The notes under the pieces: generated by a model | The model's database searches: none | Told to the model about the DNA's origin: nothing | What the model saw: the letters and a program-made list of their open reading frames with translations, nothing else | Shown here: piece after piece, positions 27,588 through 55,092 of the stretch | How positions within the stretch are numbered: the first letter of the stretch is position 1 | Layout: the number at the start of each line of letters is the position of its first letter | DNA from: Sulfurovum sp. AR | GTDB lineage: Bacteria > Campylobacterota > Campylobacteria > Campylobacterales > Sulfurovaceae | Length of the DNA stretch: 64,000 bases | Assembly (NCBI RefSeq): GCF_000296775.1 | Contig: NZ_AJLE01000006.1 | Coordinates: 372,001 to 436,000 of the forward strand | Direction of reading: 5' to 3' | Position numbers and translations under genes: made by a program

Positions 27588-28174
27588 TCTTCAGTCTTTA
27601 TATAGAGGTAATTTCGTTGATTTTTTTGTACTATATCATATCTTAGCTGATGTTGTACATCTTCTATCTCATCAAATACACGTGACCCTTTGTAAAAGAG
27701 ATACTCAGTGTGTGCATCACTAACCTTAGAGGTCAGATCTAAAAGCAGTTTTGTGTTTGTCACAGCGCGTGAACTGATGAGATCAAACGCATCATGCTCC
27801 ACGGTTTCAACCCTCTTTGCTTCTACAGTGACATTGGGAAGTTCCAAGTCTATAGCTGCATACTTTAAAAAAGAGACACGCTTCTTAAGAGGCTCGGCAA
27901 GCACTACCTTGGTATCGGGCTGTGCTATCGCAAGTACAAGTCCAGGAAATCCTGCACCAGTGCCTACATCTAACAGTGTTTTTGGGTTTTTTATAAAAGT
28001 CAAAGGGTACAGCGAATCCACGATATTGACATAAATAGCCTCTATGGTTTTAGCCCCCGTAAGGTTGTGGATCTGGTTCCATTCATGCAAAAGTAAAGCA
28101 AAACGCTCCAGCTTTACGATGATCTCACTTGACAGTAGGATCCCTTCTTTATCTAAGTGTTGCGACAGATTCAA
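27584..28174 (-). CDS. rsmG: 16S rRNA (guanine527-N7) methyltransferase RsmG
   Basis: Methylates G527 of 16S rRNA using SAM. The 196-residue protein has motif [18 protein letters not shown] and a catalytic-region block SSRAVTN. Its start overlaps the stop of the PqqD-like gene by 4 nt. In C. jejuni, to my recollection, rsmG (gidB) lies next to ribA. Here about 7.4 kb separates them, filled by the lasso island. Confidence 0.96.
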
Positions 28175-28449
28175 TTCTCTTTTACCTCTACCAACCCACT
28201 CTCAACCAACTTGTCTACAAAATCAGAAAGATCTTTCTTCAATACCTCTTCTTCCACAGCATACTGTTCTAACAGTGCATTAAACACCTCTTGCAACGTT
28301 CCATACTCCTGCATTGCCTGCCAAATAGCCGTACCTACTTCATCCAACCCGAAGTAGTTTTCACTCTCCATATCCAAAAGTACCATTTCACCATCGACTT
28401 TTTGTGCGAAAACCGTCTCTACAAATATCACTGTTTGATTGAGGTTCAT
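28171..28449 (-). CDS. PqqD-like peptide-recognition protein (lasso B1/RRE)
   Basis: A 92-residue PqqD-fold protein. These RiPP recognition elements bind leader peptides and present them to processing enzymes. The family pattern [20 protein letters not shown] lies at 23-42, followed by helices ([31 protein letters not shown]). It is the only B1-type gene in the window, and B2, C, K, D and A lie 2-7 kb away, so it very probably serves them. It is encoded apart from the operon and overlaps rsmG by 4 nt. Its promoter must lie in 28450-28690, and it is divergent from the riboswitches. Confidence 0.88.
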
Positions 28450-28689
28450 GTTATTTCTCTTATTTTTGATAAATTATAGCATTTATTTGAGTATAGGAGT
28501 ATAAGTGTACTTACACAGATAGGTTAAAATTTGGCTTTTTGTATTGAACTTTCCACATTTAGATGATTTCTCATAAAAAATAATGCTAAATTCATGTATA
28601 TCATAAATATAATTTAAGATTTTAAGAGTCATTTAATCGGAAATATACAATAATTTGTAATGTTTATATAAAACTAGCTCTTTTTAAAT

Positions 28690-28769
28690 ATTATTTTGTT
28701 GTGCCAAACTTGTTGTGAAGCAAGGACGGAAAGCCATGGGTCTTACACTGTAAAGATCGCCAGGTTGCC
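28690..28769 (+). ncRNA. Cyclic-di-GMP-I riboswitch (GEMM), tandem copy 1
   Basis: Matches the GEMM-I aptamer: CCAAAC, a 6-bp stem CTTGTT/AGCAAG capped by the GNRA tetraloop GTGA, then GACGGAAAGCC, a second hairpin GGGTCTT...AAGATCGCC, and the closing GGTTGCC. Compared with Vibrio Vc2, position 20 is G, the base that reads c-di-GMP. The 21-46 pair is C-G in place of Vc2 G-C, a compensatory change. The 80 nt are identical to copy 2, 148 nt downstream. No clear terminator lies between the copies. Confidence 0.93.
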
Positions 28770-28837
28770 AAATACTCATCTATGTATTCCCTCTTACTTC
28801 TCCATTAGTTTATCTATCAAATTTTATTTAATTCAAA

Positions 28838-28917
28838 ATTATTTTGTTGTGCCAAACTTGTTGTGAAGCAAGGACGGAAAGCCATGGGTCTTACACTGTA
28901 AAGATCGCCAGGTTGCC
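28838..28917 (+). ncRNA. Cyclic-di-GMP-I riboswitch (GEMM), tandem copy 2
   Basis: Exact 80-nt duplicate of copy 1, with all aptamer features. The AT-rich closing helix uses different flanks: ATTATTT upstream against AAATAAAT downstream. About 180 nt of leader lie between it and the subtilase ATG at 29099. A weak stem GAAAGT-N13-ACTTTC with TTT after it (28975-29003) could be part of the expression platform. The on/off direction cannot be read with confidence. Confidence 0.93.
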
Positions 28918-29098
28918 TAAATAAATTATATTATTTTTAACAGAACATAAAATATGATTATTGTTTTTTGGGAGAAAGTTATACATTTTTAGACTTTCTT
29001 TACATTCATTTGTTATGATCCCCCGCCAAATCAAATAGAAATGATAGTAAAACTATAATTTGATGTTGAAAATAATTTATTATTATAGGAGATATAAT

Positions 29099-30238
29099 AT
29101 GCGAAAAAATAAATTCTTTAACCTTTATGCCATCCTTTTGTCTATATTGACTTTTACCTCGGCAATGTTTGCATCACCTGCAGAAACACCACGTAAAATC
29201 ATCGTTTTCCAAAAAAGTTTCTCGAATAAAGCTGCGCAAGTAGACTTAATAAAAAAAACCGGTGCGATACCCATCAAACCGCTGAAGATCATCAACGGTA
29301 TGGCAGTCTATCTTCCTGAGCAGGCACAAAGTGCACTTGAAGAGCATTTAGGTGCTGAGATCGTACGTATCGATGAAGATATCATAGTGCATGGAACTGC
29401 TCCGGGTGGAGGAGAACAACCACTGCAAGAGCTTCCGTGGGGCATTGACAGGATCGAAGCAGATATCGCCTGGGGAGACTCCAACGGTACTATGGTCAAT
29501 GTTGCCATTCTCGATACCGGAGCTAATCTCGATCACTTGGACCTGATCGACAATATCAAAGGAAACTATAATGCCATCAGTTCAAGAAAAAGCGCTGCAG
29601 ACGATCATGGCCACGGGACACATGTCACAGGTATCATCGGGGCAGTGAATAACACGATAGGTGTTGTCGGTGTAGGGCCGCAGATAAACCTCTACCCTGT
29701 CAAAGTTCTGGACCGTAAAAATGAAGGAGCACTCTCTGATATTCTTGATGGAATGCAGTGGTGTATCGACAACAATATGCAGGTAGTCAATATGAGTTTT
29801 GGTGCTCTCTACTCAAACCAGTCATTACAGGATGCAGTTATCGCACTCCATAATGCCGGTATCGTTCAGGTTGCAGCTGCTGGAAATACGGGCGGTGCCA
29901 TTCTCTACCCAGCCAAATATCCTGAAACTATCGCTGTATCGTCTGTCGACTCTGCTGATCTGTTGGCTGCAAGTTCAGCCAGAGGAGCAGAGATCGATCT
30001 GGCGGCTCCTGGTGTAGGAATCAATTCTACCGCTATTGATGGATTATATACAACCATGAGCGGGACCAGTATGGCATCACCTCATGTCACAGGAGCAGCC
30101 GCACTGGTACTCTCAGTACATGGAGCACTTACACCAAATGAAGTCAAAGCTAAACTGAAAAACAGTGCGGAAGATTTGGGTTTATTATCAAATGAACAAG
30201 GAGCCGGACTCGTTCGAGCTGATCTAGCAATCTATTAG
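29099..30238 (+). CDS. Secreted S8 subtilisin-like protease with I9-type propeptide
   Basis: Exported serine protease of 379 residues. ATG 29099 follows AGGAGA at 29087-29092; the frame is open to a TTG at 29060 without support. Residues 1-25 are a signal peptide, about 32-98 an inhibitor-I9-like propeptide, and 115-379 the catalytic domain. Catalytic residues are D139 (AILDTGAN), H172 (GHGTHV), oxyanion N263 (AAGNTGG) and S324 (SGTSMASPH). It stands under two tandem c-di-GMP riboswitches and converges on the lasso operon. Possible roles include trimming the exported peptide, attacking competitors' proteins or matrix turnover; none is shown by sequence. Confidence 0.95.
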   Translation: MRKNKFFNLYAILLSILTFTSAMFASPAETPRKIIVFQKSFSNKAAQVDLIKKTGAIPIKPLKIINGMAVYLPEQAQSALEEHLGAEIVRIDEDIIVHGTAPGGGEQPLQELPWGIDRIEADIAWGDSNGTMVNVAILDTGANLDHLDLIDNIKGNYNAISSRKSAADDHGHGTHVTGIIGAVNNTIGVVGVGPQINLYPVKVLDRKNEGALSDILDGMQWCIDNNMQVVNMSFGALYSNQSLQDAVIALHNAGIVQVAAAGNTGGAILYPAKYPETIAVSSVDSADLLAASSARGAEIDLAAPGVGINSTAIDGLYTTMSGTSMASPHVTGAAALVLSVHGALTPNEVKAKLKNSAEDLGLLSNEQGAGLVRADLAIY

Positions 30239-30299: not shown

Positions 30300-30476
30300 C
30301 TAAGGAGTAACTGTACCAGCACCACCAAACCCGGTATCTTGCCCCTTATTATAATGTGTGCTACTTGTACCATCGGCACCTGCTGTCGATTTATTATATT
30401 GGGTTTTAGTTCCAATTTTCCCTAAATTTTTTATTTCCGGTTTATTATATTTTTTTATACTAAAGTTTTTTTTCAT
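30300..30476 (-). CDS. Lasso peptide precursor (A)
   Basis: A 58-residue precursor. ATG 30476 has GAGGG 5 nt upstream; an earlier in-frame ATG at 30488 has no ribosome site. The leader carries the YxxPx(I/L) recognition motif, Y10-N-K-P13-E-I15, then L18-G19. From G19 the usual G-x5-T-x spacing reaches T25-Q26, so a core could start at Y27 with D35 at ring position 9. A second site has T37-S38 before S39, with D47 at ring position 9. The C-terminal part is Gly/Thr-rich (GFGGAGTVTP). It overlaps the cyclase gene by 17 nt and is last in its operon. No homologue is recognised. Confidence 0.82.
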   Translation of the reverse strand: MKKNFSIKKYNKPEIKNLGKIGTKTQYNKSTAGADGTSSTHYNKGQDTGFGGAGTVTP

Positions 30477-32316
30477 CCTTACCCTCATTTCTATTTATTT
30501 CTAACCAATTTTCCAAATTACAGAGAGTCCATAAATTAAGAAGATTTTCTGTTAGCATATTGCCAGAAAAATATTCCCTTGTCAAATGCGCTGAAGTCTC
30601 TTCCTTTAGGAGTTCCAAATTAATTAAATTCTGGTGAGATATATTTGAATCGGTAAATATTTGTTTCATTTGTAATTCTATCCCAGGAACTAAACTGGTT
30701 TTATTATTTCTATACAAAACACTATCTGGTACAATACCATCCATGGCCAATTTTAGTATATTTTTATATATTCCGCAATGATGAAGATACTCGGGAGGTA
30801 AACTGATAATGAATTCAACTAGCTTCGTATCAAAAAAGGGATAACGAACTTCAATCCCATCATTGCTATAGTTTTGTAATGCATTAAAATCAATCCAATA
30901 AGAGAAGTGCGGTGAGAGAAAATCTAATCCAAATAATTTTATGTACTTATTATCAACTTCTTTATCAAGTTCGATCTCTTTCATATACAAAGTATTTTTA
31001 AAGAATAGTTTTGATTGTACATGATTAATGGTATTATGAATACTCTCTTTCAAACGATCAACAAAAAATAATGAAAAGATAAACTTAATGAAAATAGACT
31101 TTGACTGCGCTCGTCTTCCAATACATCTTATTGTTTTAAAAAGTTGCACAAACTTTAAATCTTTCAAATGCTGTAACATAAATGAATCATCTCCTCCAAG
31201 TACCTCATCTGCTCCCATTCCAGTGATGACCACCCTAGTTCCACGTTTAGAAAGTATCCTATTCTTCATCACAAATTCAATGAAATTACCTCTCTGAGGG
31301 ATATTCGGAAACTTTGCGTAAAAATTTGACAGATTATACTTTGTAAAGTCTATTTCATTGATATCAAACTTGAGAATATCTGATTTGAACTTTTTTTCTA
31401 ATTGTTGAATATAGTATGTCTCATCACTTGCTAGACCTTTATGTTGCATAGTATGCGCTGTAAATCGCTGTGTCATACCCATTGATATAGCTACAGAATA
31501 TATTGACGAAGAATCCAATCCTCCACTGAGTTCAACTGATAGAGGGTGTGATGATCTCAAAGAAGATTTAACTGCATTATGAAATAAGGTAGAAAATTCT
31601 TTTGCAGCCTCTTCTAATGATATGGTGCTATTGGTTTGAATCTTTTCTGGATACCAATATCTTTCCATTTTAAATTGATTTTTTGATATTGTCATCCAAT
31701 TAGATGAGGGGAGCCGTTTTATCTCTTCAAAAAAACTTTCACTTCGATCCAATGCCATAAACTTGATATACTTTTTAACAGATTGTATATCTAAAACTCT
31801 ATTGAGAAATCCTGATGCAAAAATTGGCTCAATAGAAGTGGCAAATATTAATATTTCTTTATTGTAATAGTAATAAAGTTGTCGAACTCCAAATCTATCT
31901 CTAGATACGAAAAGTTTTTTTTCTTTATTATTCCAAATTGCAAATGCAAAATCACCATTCAAATAGCTTGGACAATGCTTCCCCCACTTTTGATAGGACC
32001 ATAAAATCAAATCTGCGTCAGTGATTTTATCAAAATTGGTTGCTTTTCTGCCTAATTTTTCAATTAATTCAGAACGATTATCCAAGCGTATATCTGCAGC
32101 CAATACTAGATTCTCATCTTCCGATATTAAAGGTTGTTTTTCATATAATGATTCAGGCGTTGTACATAACATTTTATGGCCTAACCCTATACTACCATCA
32201 ATCCAAATACCTTCTGTATCACTCCCCTGTATTTTCATCGTATCAAGCATTCTTTGAATTGTTTCTTTATTTACCGGTTTATCGTCAAACCTGATAATCC
32301 CACAGATACCACTCAT
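30460..32316 (-). CDS. Lasso cyclase, asparagine synthetase-like (C)
   Basis: Lasso C proteins adenylate the side chain of the ring Asp/Glu and close the isopeptide bond to the core N-terminus. The 618-residue protein has an N-terminal Ntn-glutaminase-like domain (1-190) and a synthetase domain with the PPi loop SGGLDSS at 264-270 and GMGADEVLGGDD near 365-376. The N-terminus is MSGICGI: where AsnB has the nucleophile Cys2, this has Ser2, as in lasso cyclases that need no ammonia. The coding sequence is visibly more AT-rich than neighbouring housekeeping genes. Its ATG overlaps the kinase stop by 4 nt. Confidence 0.92.
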   Translation of the reverse strand: MSGICGIIRFDDKPVNKETIQRMLDTMKIQGSDTEGIWIDGSIGLGHKMLCTTPESLYEKQPLISEDENLVLAADIRLDNRSELIEKLGRKATNFDKITDADLILWSYQKWGKHCPSYLNGDFAFAIWNNKEKKLFVSRDRFGVRQLYYYYNKEILIFATSIEPIFASGFLNRVLDIQSVKKYIKFMALDRSESFFEEIKRLPSSNWMTISKNQFKMERYWYPEKIQTNSTISLEEAAKEFSTLFHNAVKSSLRSSHPLSVELSGGLDSSSIYSVAISMGMTQRFTAHTMQHKGLASDETYYIQQLEKKFKSDILKFDINEIDFTKYNLSNFYAKFPNIPQRGNFIEFVMKNRILSKRGTRVVITGMGADEVLGGDDSFMLQHLKDLKFVQLFKTIRCIGRRAQSKSIFIKFIFSLFFVDRLKESIHNTINHVQSKLFFKNTLYMKEIELDKEVDNKYIKLFGLDFLSPHFSYWIDFNALQNYSNDGIEVRYPFFDTKLVEFIISLPPEYLHHCGIYKNILKLAMDGIVPDSVLYRNNKTSLVPGIELQMKQIFTDSNISHQNLINLELLKEETSAHLTREYFSGNMLTENLLNLWTLCNLENWLEINRNEGKDEKKL

Positions 32317-33197
32317 GATAAACCTTTGCTATGCTGACAGATACTATCATGCACTTCACTAAGACGTTCCATATCCCAAGGTATCTGAACACGAAAAACC
32401 TTTATAGTGTTAAGCATTTGAGAAAGATGCTTCAGTCGTTTTGGCTTTAGAAAAGAGAATAAATAAATATTATTTGCTAAAAGGTTGTCAAACTTTTCAA
32501 ACCCTCTAATTTCTTCAAATGATACTTCATTACTTTCATCCACACCTTCCAATACATAAAAAACATGAATAGGTTTAAAGTCAGTTATGAAATTGTCAAC
32601 ATGGTAACCTAAATCTTCAGCTTTCCTGTATGGACGATGATAAGGAAATGAACCCACAGCCATAAATTTACCATCCTTTATAAAAGTCGGAACCTTATCA
32701 TCAGAAACAAGTGTATGTCCCTGCTTGATAAAGTAATCCGTCATGGTTGATTTACCACCCATGGAAGGCGCAATGAATAGTATAGGTTTTCCTTCTACTT
32801 CGACTGCACCTGCATGAAGAAAATCGTATTGCTCCTCCAAGGTAAGATAAAGCGGTAACATCAGGTGAATAAACCAAAAACTCAACAGATTAGAATCACC
32901 TTCTTTATCTAGTTCATAGTAAATCGTCCTCTCTCCTCCAAGCCAATAAAAACGAACTACATCAGCAACTTCATAACAAAATGGCTGCCTTGCTTCATTC
33001 CTCTCAAATTCACGATCACTATAGAAATATACATTACGCCCATGAGCCCAATAAGCCGGAAAACCGCAGATAATAAATGTTTTGAATTTATCTGGTACTC
33101 TTGAAGAGAGTTCTACTTCATATCGTGAAGTTGTTTCATGCGATAGATCCAGAGGGAAGTCAATGTCGCTTTTAATCCGTGTACCATATACTATCAT
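32313..33197 (-). CDS. HPr kinase/phosphorylase-like protein of lasso cluster (K)
   Basis: A 294-residue protein with an HPr-kinase C-terminal-type fold: LHAGAVEVEGKPI, P-loop APSMGGKST at 143-151, then LVSDDKVP. No HPr is encoded nearby. In paeninodin-type lasso clusters such kinases phosphorylate the precursor C-terminal Ser. Here the precursor ends in TVTP, so the target, if any, must be a Thr or an internal Ser. ATG 33197 overlaps the B2 stop as ATGA; the frame is open to a TTG at 33209. Confidence 0.88.
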   Translation of the reverse strand: MIVYGTRIKSDIDFPLDLSHETTSRYEVELSSRVPDKFKTFIICGFPAYWAHGRNVYFYSDREFERNEARQPFCYEVADVVRFYWLGGERTIYYELDKEGDSNLLSFWFIHLMLPLYLTLEEQYDFLHAGAVEVEGKPILFIAPSMGGKSTMTDYFIKQGHTLVSDDKVPTFIKDGKFMAVGSFPYHRPYRKAEDLGYHVDNFITDFKPIHVFYVLEGVDESNEVSFEEIRGFEKFDNLLANNIYLFSFLKPKRLKHLSQMLNTIKVFRVQIPWDMERLSEVHDSICQHSKGLS

Positions 33198-33652
33198 TCG
33201 TTTCCCCAACCAAACGTCGAAATCACCGTAAACTCTTCATATCCTTTAACCCCTGTAAGTATCATATCGCCACACTGGGACCAGGCATGTGCTTTCATCT
33301 TCTCTTCAACATTTTTATCTTTTGCTACCCCAAGATAAAAAACCCCTGGAATACCGCGTTTTTGCAGCATTTTCTGTGCAGTAAGTGACTGTACCAGACA
33401 TGCACTCTCCCAGGGAGTATGTTCAGCTGCTCTGGTGACTGCATGCCCTACTAAAGTTGCAGTCTGCATCTCATCACCCGTCAATGGGATTACCTCACCT
33501 TTGCTTTTTTGATGCTCCAAAGAACGAGTTAACCGCTTAAAAGAGAGAGTCAAAATCGCTGCACGCATGATGCCAAGCATGATATAGGCTTCCAAGAAAA
33601 GTTTCTTCTCTCTACTAGACAATTTAATAAATTTTTGTATTTTTCTCAGCAT
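33194..33652 (-). CDS. Lasso leader peptidase, transglutaminase-like (B2)
   Basis: Cuts the leader from the precursor after B1 has bound it. The 152-residue protein shows the family catalytic cysteine C85 in ESACLVQSLTAQ and histidine H122 in AHAWSQCGD; D129 may complete the triad. The N-terminal helices (1-80) match B2 proteins. It lacks its own B1 domain, so the separate PqqD-like protein is needed. Its start overlaps the exporter gene by 29 nt. Confidence 0.92.
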   Translation of the reverse strand: MLRKIQKFIKLSSREKKLFLEAYIMLGIMRAAILTLSFKRLTRSLEHQKSKGEVIPLTGDEMQTATLVGHAVTRAAEHTPWESACLVQSLTAQKMLQKRGIPGVFYLGVAKDKNVEEKMKAHAWSQCGDMILTGVKGYEEFTVISTFGWGNE

Positions 33653-35408
33653 AAAAATCTTCCTGTATCAGTCCTCTTTTCCGAAGTTCACCATAACTTC
33701 CCTCTGCCTTTACACGCCCATCATCAATGAAATAGATACGATCTGCCTGTTTGATCGTTGTCGTCCTGTGTGCTATGATGATTGTGGTACGGTCTTTAAG
33801 AAATGTCTCTAGTGTTTCATAGAGATGATACTCTGTTTCGTTATCTAAGGCAGATGTGGATTCATCAAATATAACGATCTTTGGATCTGAGAGTATCAAC
33901 CTGGCTATGGCGAGCCGTTGACGCTGTCCTCCAGAGAGACGGATACCGTTTTTACCGATATGTGTTTCCAGACCATTTTCTAACTTAGAGACAAACTCTT
34001 CAAGCTGTGCCGCTTTCAGTGCTTCATAGATCTCAGTCTCGCTTTTTTCTTTGAAAAGAGTGAGATTCATACGAATAGTATCGTTGAAAAAGAGTGCTTC
34101 TTGTAACATGAGTGCCGTATTCTCGCGTACGATGGGTAAGCCTATCTGTTCTATGGGGATACCTCCATACAGTATCTCCCCGGCATGTGAAGGGTAAAAC
34201 CCTACCGTGATCTGGGCAATGGTGGTTTTACCACTTCCGCTAGGACCAATAAGTGCGATCTTTTGCCCTTCTTTTGCTTTTAAACTTATATTGTGCAGTA
34301 CCTCTTTACCATTATCATAGGCAAAAGATATCTCTTTTAACTCCACAGAAGTCGTTTTTTTATCTTCAAATGGGTTACACTCATGTGGATAATGTGGTTC
34401 ATGGGAAAGAGTAAGTAATGTATTGATACGTTCAAGTGCCGGTTTGATAGTTTGATAGGAGATGACCAATCCCATCAATTGCTGCATAGGAGAAACAAGA
34501 GTAGAAAGGTAAAAAAGAAAAGCTATCATCATTCCAACGGTTAAGTCTGAATATGCCACTGCAGCGATGCCCAGTACTCGAAAGATATCCACTACCATAT
34601 TGGTCAAAAGTGTAGATGAAGTTTGTGCAACAGAAGCTTTGTACCCATAGTCAAGTGATGCCGACTCGATCTCTTTTGCACGTCCCTGAAGAATACCAAA
34701 GAAACTTCGTTCCTGGTTGCTCACACGTACCTGTATAAAAAGTTCAAGTGTTTCATTCAGGAGTTCATGATACATTTCATAGGCTTTATATTGACGTCGA
34801 AGCAGTTCTCCTGTCTTACGTCCCAAAAGTTTAGAAAAAGCTAAGAAAAAAGGATTGAGTAAAAACACCAATAATGCCAAGACCCAATTCATCCAAAGCA
34901 TGATCACAGCGATACCCAGCAGCATGAGAGAAGCACTTAAAAGTGTGGTAACTATCTGTCCGGCAAAACCACTGATACTCTCTACATCCTGCACACTCTT
35001 TGAAGCGATGTTCCCTGACTTCAGTGACTCATATTCTGAAAGTGAGATACGTTCTAAATGATGTAAGATTCGATGTCGTAGTAGATAACTTATCTTTTGT
35101 GTGATTTTAGTTGCGTAGAAAGTTTTTTTGTTATTCAAAAAAAATGCTAGAAATCTCAATGTGAGTATCACTGCGAGTATCACAGAGATATACAACCAAA
35201 CTTCAGAATTCCCAAAGATACTGGAAATGAATTCTGTCATCTTCCCTGGATGCCCGAGCAGGACCTCGTCTATCAAAAGAGGCATAAGCATTGGGATAGG
35301 AAGCAAAAGCAACGTTGCACCTATCCCCAACAGGTTGGTACGCCAAAAATCTCTCTCTTGTGCCTTTATCTGATCATGGAGTGTCTTAAATGTATACTTG
35401 CCTGTCAT
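33624..35408 (-). CDS. Lasso peptide ABC exporter (D)
   Basis: A 594-residue half-transporter with six membrane segments (about 25-320) and a nucleotide-binding domain: Walker A GPSGSGKT at 388-395, signature LSGGQRQR at 491-498, Walker B IVIFDE at 511-516. It lacks the C39 peptidase domain of bacteriocin exporters, consistent with B1/B2 removing the leader. It is the first gene of the D-B2-K-C-A operon and starts about 33 nt after the third riboswitch. Confidence 0.93.
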   Translation of the reverse strand: MTGKYTFKTLHDQIKAQERDFWRTNLLGIGATLLLLPIPMLMPLLIDEVLLGHPGKMTEFISSIFGNSEVWLYISVILAVILTLRFLAFFLNNKKTFYATKITQKISYLLRHRILHHLERISLSEYESLKSGNIASKSVQDVESISGFAGQIVTTLLSASLMLLGIAVIMLWMNWVLALLVFLLNPFFLAFSKLLGRKTGELLRRQYKAYEMYHELLNETLELFIQVRVSNQERSFFGILQGRAKEIESASLDYGYKASVAQTSSTLLTNMVVDIFRVLGIAAVAYSDLTVGMMIAFLFYLSTLVSPMQQLMGLVISYQTIKPALERINTLLTLSHEPHYPHECNPFEDKKTTSVELKEISFAYDNGKEVLHNISLKAKEGQKIALIGPSGSGKTTIAQITVGFYPSHAGEILYGGIPIEQIGLPIVRENTALMLQEALFFNDTIRMNLTLFKEKSETEIYEALKAAQLEEFVSKLENGLETHIGKNGIRLSGGQRQRLAIARLILSDPKIVIFDESTSALDNETEYHLYETLETFLKDRTTIIIAHRTTTIKQADRIYFIDDGRVKAEGSYGELRKRGLIQEDFYAEKNTKIY

Positions 35409-35440
35409 CTTAACCTATTGTTTTGTTCCGTACATTAAGT

Positions 35441-35530
35441 TAGGTAACCTGGCAATCTTCTCTGTTACTATCAAATGATAGTATGAAAGACCCATGGCTT
35501 TCTGACCCTGCCTCACAACAGGTGTAGCAT
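35441..35530 (-). ncRNA. Cyclic-di-GMP-I riboswitch (GEMM) of the lasso operon
   Basis: On the leftward strand: a 6-bp stem CCTGTT/GGCAGG capped by GTGA, then GTCAGAAAGCCATGGGTCTT, a longer P3 arm than the tandem copies, GATTGCCAGG and the closing GGTTACC. Relative to Vibrio Vc2, G20 is kept, pair 21-46 is C-G and pair 22-45 is U-A, both compensatory. It ends about 33 nt before the exporter ATG (35408). ACCTA at its 3' edge is complementary to TAGGT in the ribosome-binding region at 35413-35417. Confidence 0.92.
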
Positions 35531-35550
35531 TTATCTTATCAATTTTTATG

Positions 35551-54717: not shown

Positions 54718-55092
54718 GGGGATGACTTGGTTTCGACTGGAGTAGTCGGGGCTATGTGCATGTCGGACTGGGCAATTCCGTTACGCGGCCCACACGCGAA
54801 TAAACGCAAACAATACAGATTATCGTCCAGCTTACGCAGTAGCGTAAGTCATTAACCCCGCTAACGCGGAGGACTGCTTCGCCGGTGAGTGTCATCTTAA
54901 CCGGATTTTGAAGTATCACATCTGATGACTATGCTCCCTGGAAGCTATGCCAGGGTGTGAGAATTTTAGCTCGTCTTGTAAAGTTTTGAGTGTAGTACAA
55001 AGCAGGATTAAAATTAACAACACTGACTAAGCATGTAGAGTCATGGTTCTATCTATTTTAGGACAGGGGTTCAATTCCCCTCATCTCCACCA
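54718..55092 (+). ncRNA. ssrA: tmRNA
   Basis: Rescues stalled ribosomes. The ends form the acceptor stem GGGGATG (54718-54724) / CATCTCC (55082-55088), followed by A and an encoded CCA. The T-arm GGTTCAATTCC lies near 55067. The tag frame runs from GCA at 54806 to TAA at 54845-54847 and encodes ANNTDYRPAYAVA, close to Campylobacterota tags that begin ANN. It is a one-piece tmRNA of 375 nt. Confidence 0.97.

Follow-up and report, generated by a model that had tools for sequence, protein, structure and literature searches.

Two identical c-di-GMP-I riboswitch aptamers in tandem ahead of a subtilase gene in Sulfurovum sp. AR, a predicted pair of ON switches in series

The window analyzed here is a stretch of 64,000 nucleotides from Sulfurovum sp. 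AR. It contains a subtilase gene (S8 peptidase; 29099..30238, + strand; PF00082, E 2.9e-55), the presumed regulated gene, whose 379 aa product has an N-terminal hydrophobic segment. Two 80-nt blocks lie upstream on the same strand, copy 1 at 28690..28769 and copy 2 at 28838..28917, and the ATG at 29099 is 181 nt 3' of the copy 2 block. Base-by-base comparison within the 64-kb window showed that all 80 nt are the same. The bases flanking the block mismatch on both sides (28689 T vs 28837 A; 28770 A vs 28918 T), and the 68-nt spacer (28770-28837) and the outer flanks are dissimilar. A direct-repeat search recovered the same pair with a start-to-start distance of 148. The first-pass annotation, which had described identical 80-nt blocks with unlike spacer and flanks, was exact on this point.

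The blocks were classified using cmscan. RF01051, which has a curated cut-off of 35 bits, matched at 28693-28772 (+; 61.5 bits, E 1.4e-9) and at 28841-28920 (+; 60.5 bits, E 2.3e-9), and these E values place the aptamer matches beyond chance. Judged by their sequence, both copies in the subtilase leader are c-di-GMP-I riboswitch aptamers, and ligand binding is predicted. A GUGA tetraloop, G20 and A47 were found in copy 1 and in copy 2. G20 and A47, numbered after the Vc2 structure, are the ligand-contact bases. 107/111 readable aptamers of the set have G20, both window copies among them. Variants selective for cGAMP (GEMM-Ib) are recognized by an A at position 20; cGAMP sensing was discarded because this position is G in both copies. 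The variant family RF03167 (c-di-GMP-I-GGC) aligned at 57.2 and 56.2 bits, below its own cut-off of 59. Two aptamers of the same class lie within one 5' leader, the arrangement of a tandem riboswitch, and both are presumably carried on one transcript. The RF01051 scores and the PF00082 match bear out the earlier claim of two c-di-GMP aptamers in series upstream of a subtilase.

A candidate promoter for the leader, TTAAGA-18-TACAAT, was found at 28622..28651 (+) as a consensus match only. The sequence around it shares 97-98% identity with two related genomes, G076 and G036, and TATAAT-like boxes occur at a similar distance ahead of the first copy of the paralogous DUF4382 modules described below. 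Identity to G036 is mostly 93-98% across the leader (28580-28939), 57-64% across 28940-29059 and 65-92% across much of the gene. Because the leader is better conserved than the downstream stretch and the gene, the two-aptamer leader is taken to be under selection. A 13-nt inverted repeat (28920-28932 / 29069-29081) was considered as a long-range platform and rejected, as its 5' arm is altered in G036 with no compensating change.

A promoter-like sequence, TAGACT-18-TATGAT, lies 3' of both aptamers at 28990..29019 (+). This consensus match has an extended -10, and TATGAT is retained in G036 amid poorly conserved sequence. It is a possible bypass promoter, in which case the aptamers would govern a short leader RNA only and the subtilase would be expressed from the second promoter. 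We felt that this arrangement was very improbable. Promoter consensus matches in this stretch are near the chance level (9 observed vs 5.7 expected), the strongly conserved leader on the same strand resembles a riboswitch-bearing 5' UTR, and elsewhere in the genome aptamers stand directly ahead of genes.

A third c-di-GMP-I aptamer of the window, outside the tandem pair, lies at 35440..35538 (-; RF01051, 51.1 bits), 31 nt before the ATG of an ABC exporter gene. The same gene is preceded likewise in G076, G036 and G021. A lasso-peptide-like cluster surrounds the subtilase (28171-28449, 30300-30488, 30460-35408 and 35440-35538, all on the - strand), with PqqD, a 62-aa ORF, an Asn-synthetase-like cyclase, an HPrK-like kinase, a B2 protein (NF033537, 101 bits, cut-off 33) and the ABC exporter. 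The 62-aa ORF contains YNKPEIKNLGKIGTKT, which we take to fit the lasso leader motif YxxPxLxxxGxxxxxT. A tmRNA gene was found at 54718-55092 (+; 143.8 bits).

The genome, G000 (2.13 Mb, 11 contigs), contains 21 RF01051 aptamers. At least one is present in 72/78 genomes of the genus, and 45/248 genomes in an order-level sample have them. Genes behind the aptamers include those for three small PAS proteins, DUF4382 and other lipoproteins, an L,D-transpeptidase, a NIT-HisKA kinase, a GGDEF-EAL protein, a WecG-type glycosyltransferase and threonine synthase. The ligand is likely made, since 14 GGDEF domains are encoded in the genome. With 21 places, the c-di-GMP-I regulon is unusually large for a 2.1 Mb genome. 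The aptamer before the GGDEF-EAL gene (C5:83614-83713) may form part of a feedback loop. Aptamers were found 77-90 nt ahead of small PAS-only genes at G000:C6:248074, C6:167296 and C11:265025 and in orthologues. Some of them are followed by a hairpin and then a tract rich in C and poor in G, CUACACUUCUUACACUACACACUAC, where Rho might load. A weak match (48 bits) at G000:C11:57837-57911, with AAGUU replacing AAACU and a conserved hairpin, has four orthologues, and in the five genomes it lies 248 nt before the threonine synthase gene.

Orthologous subtilases were identified in G076 (92% aa identity) and G036 (86%), each behind two aptamers with spacings of 150 and 148, respectively. Copy number among relatives, which the first-pass annotation had proposed to compare, is therefore two in both. 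The nearest subtilase relative in G021 (65%) is in two pieces with no adjoining aptamer, and a close subtilase was not found in G028 or G029. Over the Rfam-bounded matches the G000 mates have 1 mismatch, at the base directly behind the 80-nt block, against 6 in G036 and 13 in G076, so among the orthologous subtilase pairs the 80-nt identity is specific to G000. An assembly duplication, raised earlier as a caveat, is refuted, as the pair recurs at the same place with sequence differences in G036, whose assembly is one contig of 2.19 Mb, and in G076. The same pairs, at the same position and spacing, argue against the earlier reading of a recent duplication in this lineage.

Within the subtilase aptamers nearly all changes are private to a single copy of a single genome. 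The sole shared state is a loop base, which occurs in different copies (G076 copy 2 and G036 copy 1), and the G000 pair has no private changes. Since nearly all differences are private, the ancestral copies were probably identical or almost so. The simplest reading of these patterns is that the common ancestor of G000, G076 and G036 had two copies resembling those of G000. Gene conversion inside the G000 lineage is unneeded because G000 has no private changes. The 80-nt identity would then be an old state, and concerted evolution or strong constraint before the three genomes split would explain identical aptamers between unlike flanks.

In G076 copy 1, changes at A48, C52 and P2 break conserved bases or pairs, and the score is 46 bits vs 60. 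This copy looks to be decaying, although the draft state of the G076 assembly calls for caution, and its apparent decay implies that two working copies are not required everywhere. Decay was also seen elsewhere: DUF4382 copy 1 of G029 is cut to 62 nt, and one copy 2 of G028 is degenerate. Such cases are expected if a single working aptamer is enough and the other, a mere passenger, is gradually disappearing. Redundancy of this kind seems improbable at the subtilase, as both copies and the spacer are highly conserved between G000 and G036, and tandem pairs with 137-158 nt spacing recur across several genomes.

A second tandem was found ahead of a DUF4382 lipoprotein gene (G000:C9:83429-83664). 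Here copy 1 is preceded by TTTTAAATATTATTTGTTGTGCC and copy 2 by TATTTAATTCAAACTTATTTTGTTGTGCC, which are near-identical to the flanks of subtilase copies 1 and 2. The shared flanks imply homology of one continuous unit made up of the 5' flank, aptamer 1, the end of the spacer and aptamer 2. By this evidence, copying between the subtilase and DUF4382 loci involved the complete two-aptamer module. The DUF4382 pairs of G000, G036 and G076 have 2 to 5 copy-specific sites and zero concerted sites, and by this measure their mates are old and separately evolving. The subtilase pairs lack all of the copy-specific sites seen in the DUF4382 pairs. The G077 pair, compared with the other DUF4382 pairs, has 5 to 9 concerted sites and no more than 1 that is copy-specific; G028 is mixed. 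The site pattern of G077 appears to be the mark of concerted evolution, a process that is compatible with the data at the subtilase. Some of the states are common to other G077 aptamers, so a third donor copy or lineage-wide drift is possible. An independent pair in G045 also has identical cores and unlike flanks. No relevant paper on gene conversion acting between riboswitches in tandem came up in a literature search.

Another tandem, L080 (G000:C8:28447-28526 and 28663-28745, plus orthologues; spacing 216-221), lies before a gene for an fn3/phosphatase-like lipoprotein. L080 copy 1 is 98-100% identical over five genomes and ends GUUGCA, not GUUGCC. Copies 1 and 2 have 25-36 differing positions and a TATAAT-like box in between. 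The hairpin directly 3' of copy 2 varies in sequence with its pairing kept (CUUUGUUGCAUACAACAAAG, CUUUGUAACAUACAAAG, CUUUGUAUCAUUACAAAG) and has no U run after it. Copy-2 orthologues with this hairpin are at G036:C1:1418461 and G076:C7:59983 and in G028, G029 and G057. The kept pairing marks it as a conserved platform, apparently not the usual terminator.

Expression platforms were evaluated by comparing the downstream pairing of the last bases of the aptamer (P1 3' strand) with that in dinucleotide shuffles. A consensus scan found no strong intrinsic terminators at the tandem; it misses the copy-1 hairpin because this is weak and A/U-rich. The putative copy-1 platform (28771..28803, +), identified from shuffles, homologues and predicted fold, is a hairpin, AAUAC-8-GUAUU (28771-28788), and then a pyrimidine-rich tract, CCCUCUUACUUCUCC. 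The hairpin shares 28771-28774 with the P1 3' strand, and its tail, CCCUCUUACUUC, has no U run. Hairpin plus tail gave a p of about 0.02 in 100 shuffles, and homologous hairpins were found in G076 and in the DUF4382 modules. The hairpin energy is -1.6 kcal/mol here, -2.9 in G076 and -0.7 in G036. The first-pass annotation saw no clear terminator after copy 1 and called the read-out unclear; the consensus scan agrees, but a weak hairpin that competes with P1 does follow.

The candidate copy-2 platform, AAAUAA-6-UUAUUU then UU (28919..28938, +), comes from the predicted fold and is uncertain. Its AAAUAA arm overlaps the P1 3' strand, and in G036 the arms are retained and the loop is altered. This weak A/U hairpin was no better than shuffles in both shuffle tests, and its modeled role is uncertain. 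Each copy folded alone was predicted to form P2, P3 and the hairpin, with P1 absent. Ligand binding would hold P1 and remove the hairpin, which predicts an ON switch.

P1-competing hairpins are enriched in G000 (11/21 aptamers at p<=0.1; KS 3e-4). G028, G029, G076, G077 and G036 show the same shift against shuffles, orthologous loci among these genomes not being independent, and the aptamers of G021 showed no shift in this P1 3'-strand pairing test. When a U-rich or pyrimidine tail was added to the hairpin test, copy-1 platforms had p<=0.05 in 8/13 tandem pairs, including the unrelated pairs of G045 and G008. Homologous and independent pairs repeat the copy-1 design, mostly with stronger hairpins. 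Copy-2 platforms mostly failed the hairpin-plus-tail test.

Since the copy-2 platform lacks a terminator, the two copies might have different read-outs, with copy 1 gating transcription and copy 2 acting through translation, RNA stability or Rho access. Only ~48-52 nt separate DUF4382 copy 2 from its gene, CUUUUGUGC is the pairing partner of the aptamer's P1 3' strand, and the copy-2 platforms at this locus have no terminator. Subtilase copy 2, however, is distant from the ribosome-binding site at 181 nt before the ATG and does carry an A/U hairpin that leads into a short run of U, and G045 copy 2 passes the hairpin-plus-tail test. Two read-outs are possible but on balance unlikely at the subtilase.

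The reading that we favor, with a probability of roughly 0.6, is that a tandem c-di-GMP-I riboswitch, working as two ON switches in series, controls the secreted subtilase. A single transcript would begin 5' of copy 1 and cross both aptamers. With no c-di-GMP, the P1 3' strand of copy 1 would pair downstream, giving the hairpin and pyrimidine/U-rich tract, and transcription would tend to stop. With c-di-GMP bound, P1 would be held, the hairpin would be blocked, and polymerase would continue to copy 2. Copy 2 would then apply the same check through a platform that is weaker and less certain. Full expression would need both aptamers bound (ON-ON in series), with less leak and a steeper response. 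The model is built on the aptamers, their G20 and A47, the tandem kept in three genomes, the homology of the modules and the overlap of P1 with the hairpin; we infer the promoter, the termination and the ON sign. The weak copy-1 hairpin, its missing U run, the copy-2 hairpin that is no better than shuffles, the DUF4382 copy 2 that has no terminator, the apparent decay of G076 copy 1 and the downstream promoter-like site count against switches in series.

A broader picture, which we hold to be doubtful, is that of a c-di-GMP-I cassette spreading in a Campylobacterales genus (up to 21 per 2 Mb genome). It would include the copied two-aptamer module, gene-converted mates, and different read-outs for copies 1 and 2 that form a two-stage gate for one ligand. 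The results suggest that c-di-GMP riboswitches govern a large regulon in Campylobacterales. They would link c-di-GMP to a secreted protease adjoining a lasso-peptide-like operon with its own c-di-GMP aptamer. The identical, diverged and half-decayed forms in relatives are ready material for learning what a second copy buys.

Tandems of this class are known. One survey counted 347 c-di-GMP-I doublets and 12 triplets, the doublets outnumbering every other same-class tandem (PMC9481103). Another, which highlights Thermodesulfobacteriota and Deinococcota, reports that tandem arrangements are enriched in the family (PMC12452182). The pair shares class and doublet layout with the doublets in these surveys, and a pseudo-cooperative response would be expected. 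No mention of Sulfurovum or Campylobacter was found in either survey, and a literature search found no report naming c-di-GMP riboswitches together with Sulfurovum. In the mapped 5' UTRs of C. jejuni, the only metabolite-sensing riboswitch described is one for TPP (PMC3847290). The pair is a further example of a known tandem type, in a group for which no report was found. A steeper response is the published expectation when each aptamer has its own platform (PMC4759541, PMC9481103), and a digital response, the standard reading, would apply here by analogy.

The triple-tandem c-di-GMP-I riboswitch Bc3-5 of Bacillus thuringiensis was tested as more stringent and digital (PMC4759541). Without ligand its RNA folds into a terminator; once ligand is bound, C92-side, P1 and P3 bases are no longer free to join that structure (PMC4759541). 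As in Bc3-5, complete c-di-GMP-I aptamers are serial in the 5' UTR with surface or secreted products downstream, and the layout in which ligand holds P1 and blocks a terminator is predicted here (PMC4759541). Bc3-5 has three similar units with real terminators, in Bacillota, and has been tested; the Campylobacterales tandem has two identical units with weak A/U hairpins and is known from sequence. The glycine riboswitch also has two same-class aptamers in series, but these share one platform, whereas the aptamers described here are 68 nt apart with a hairpin behind each.
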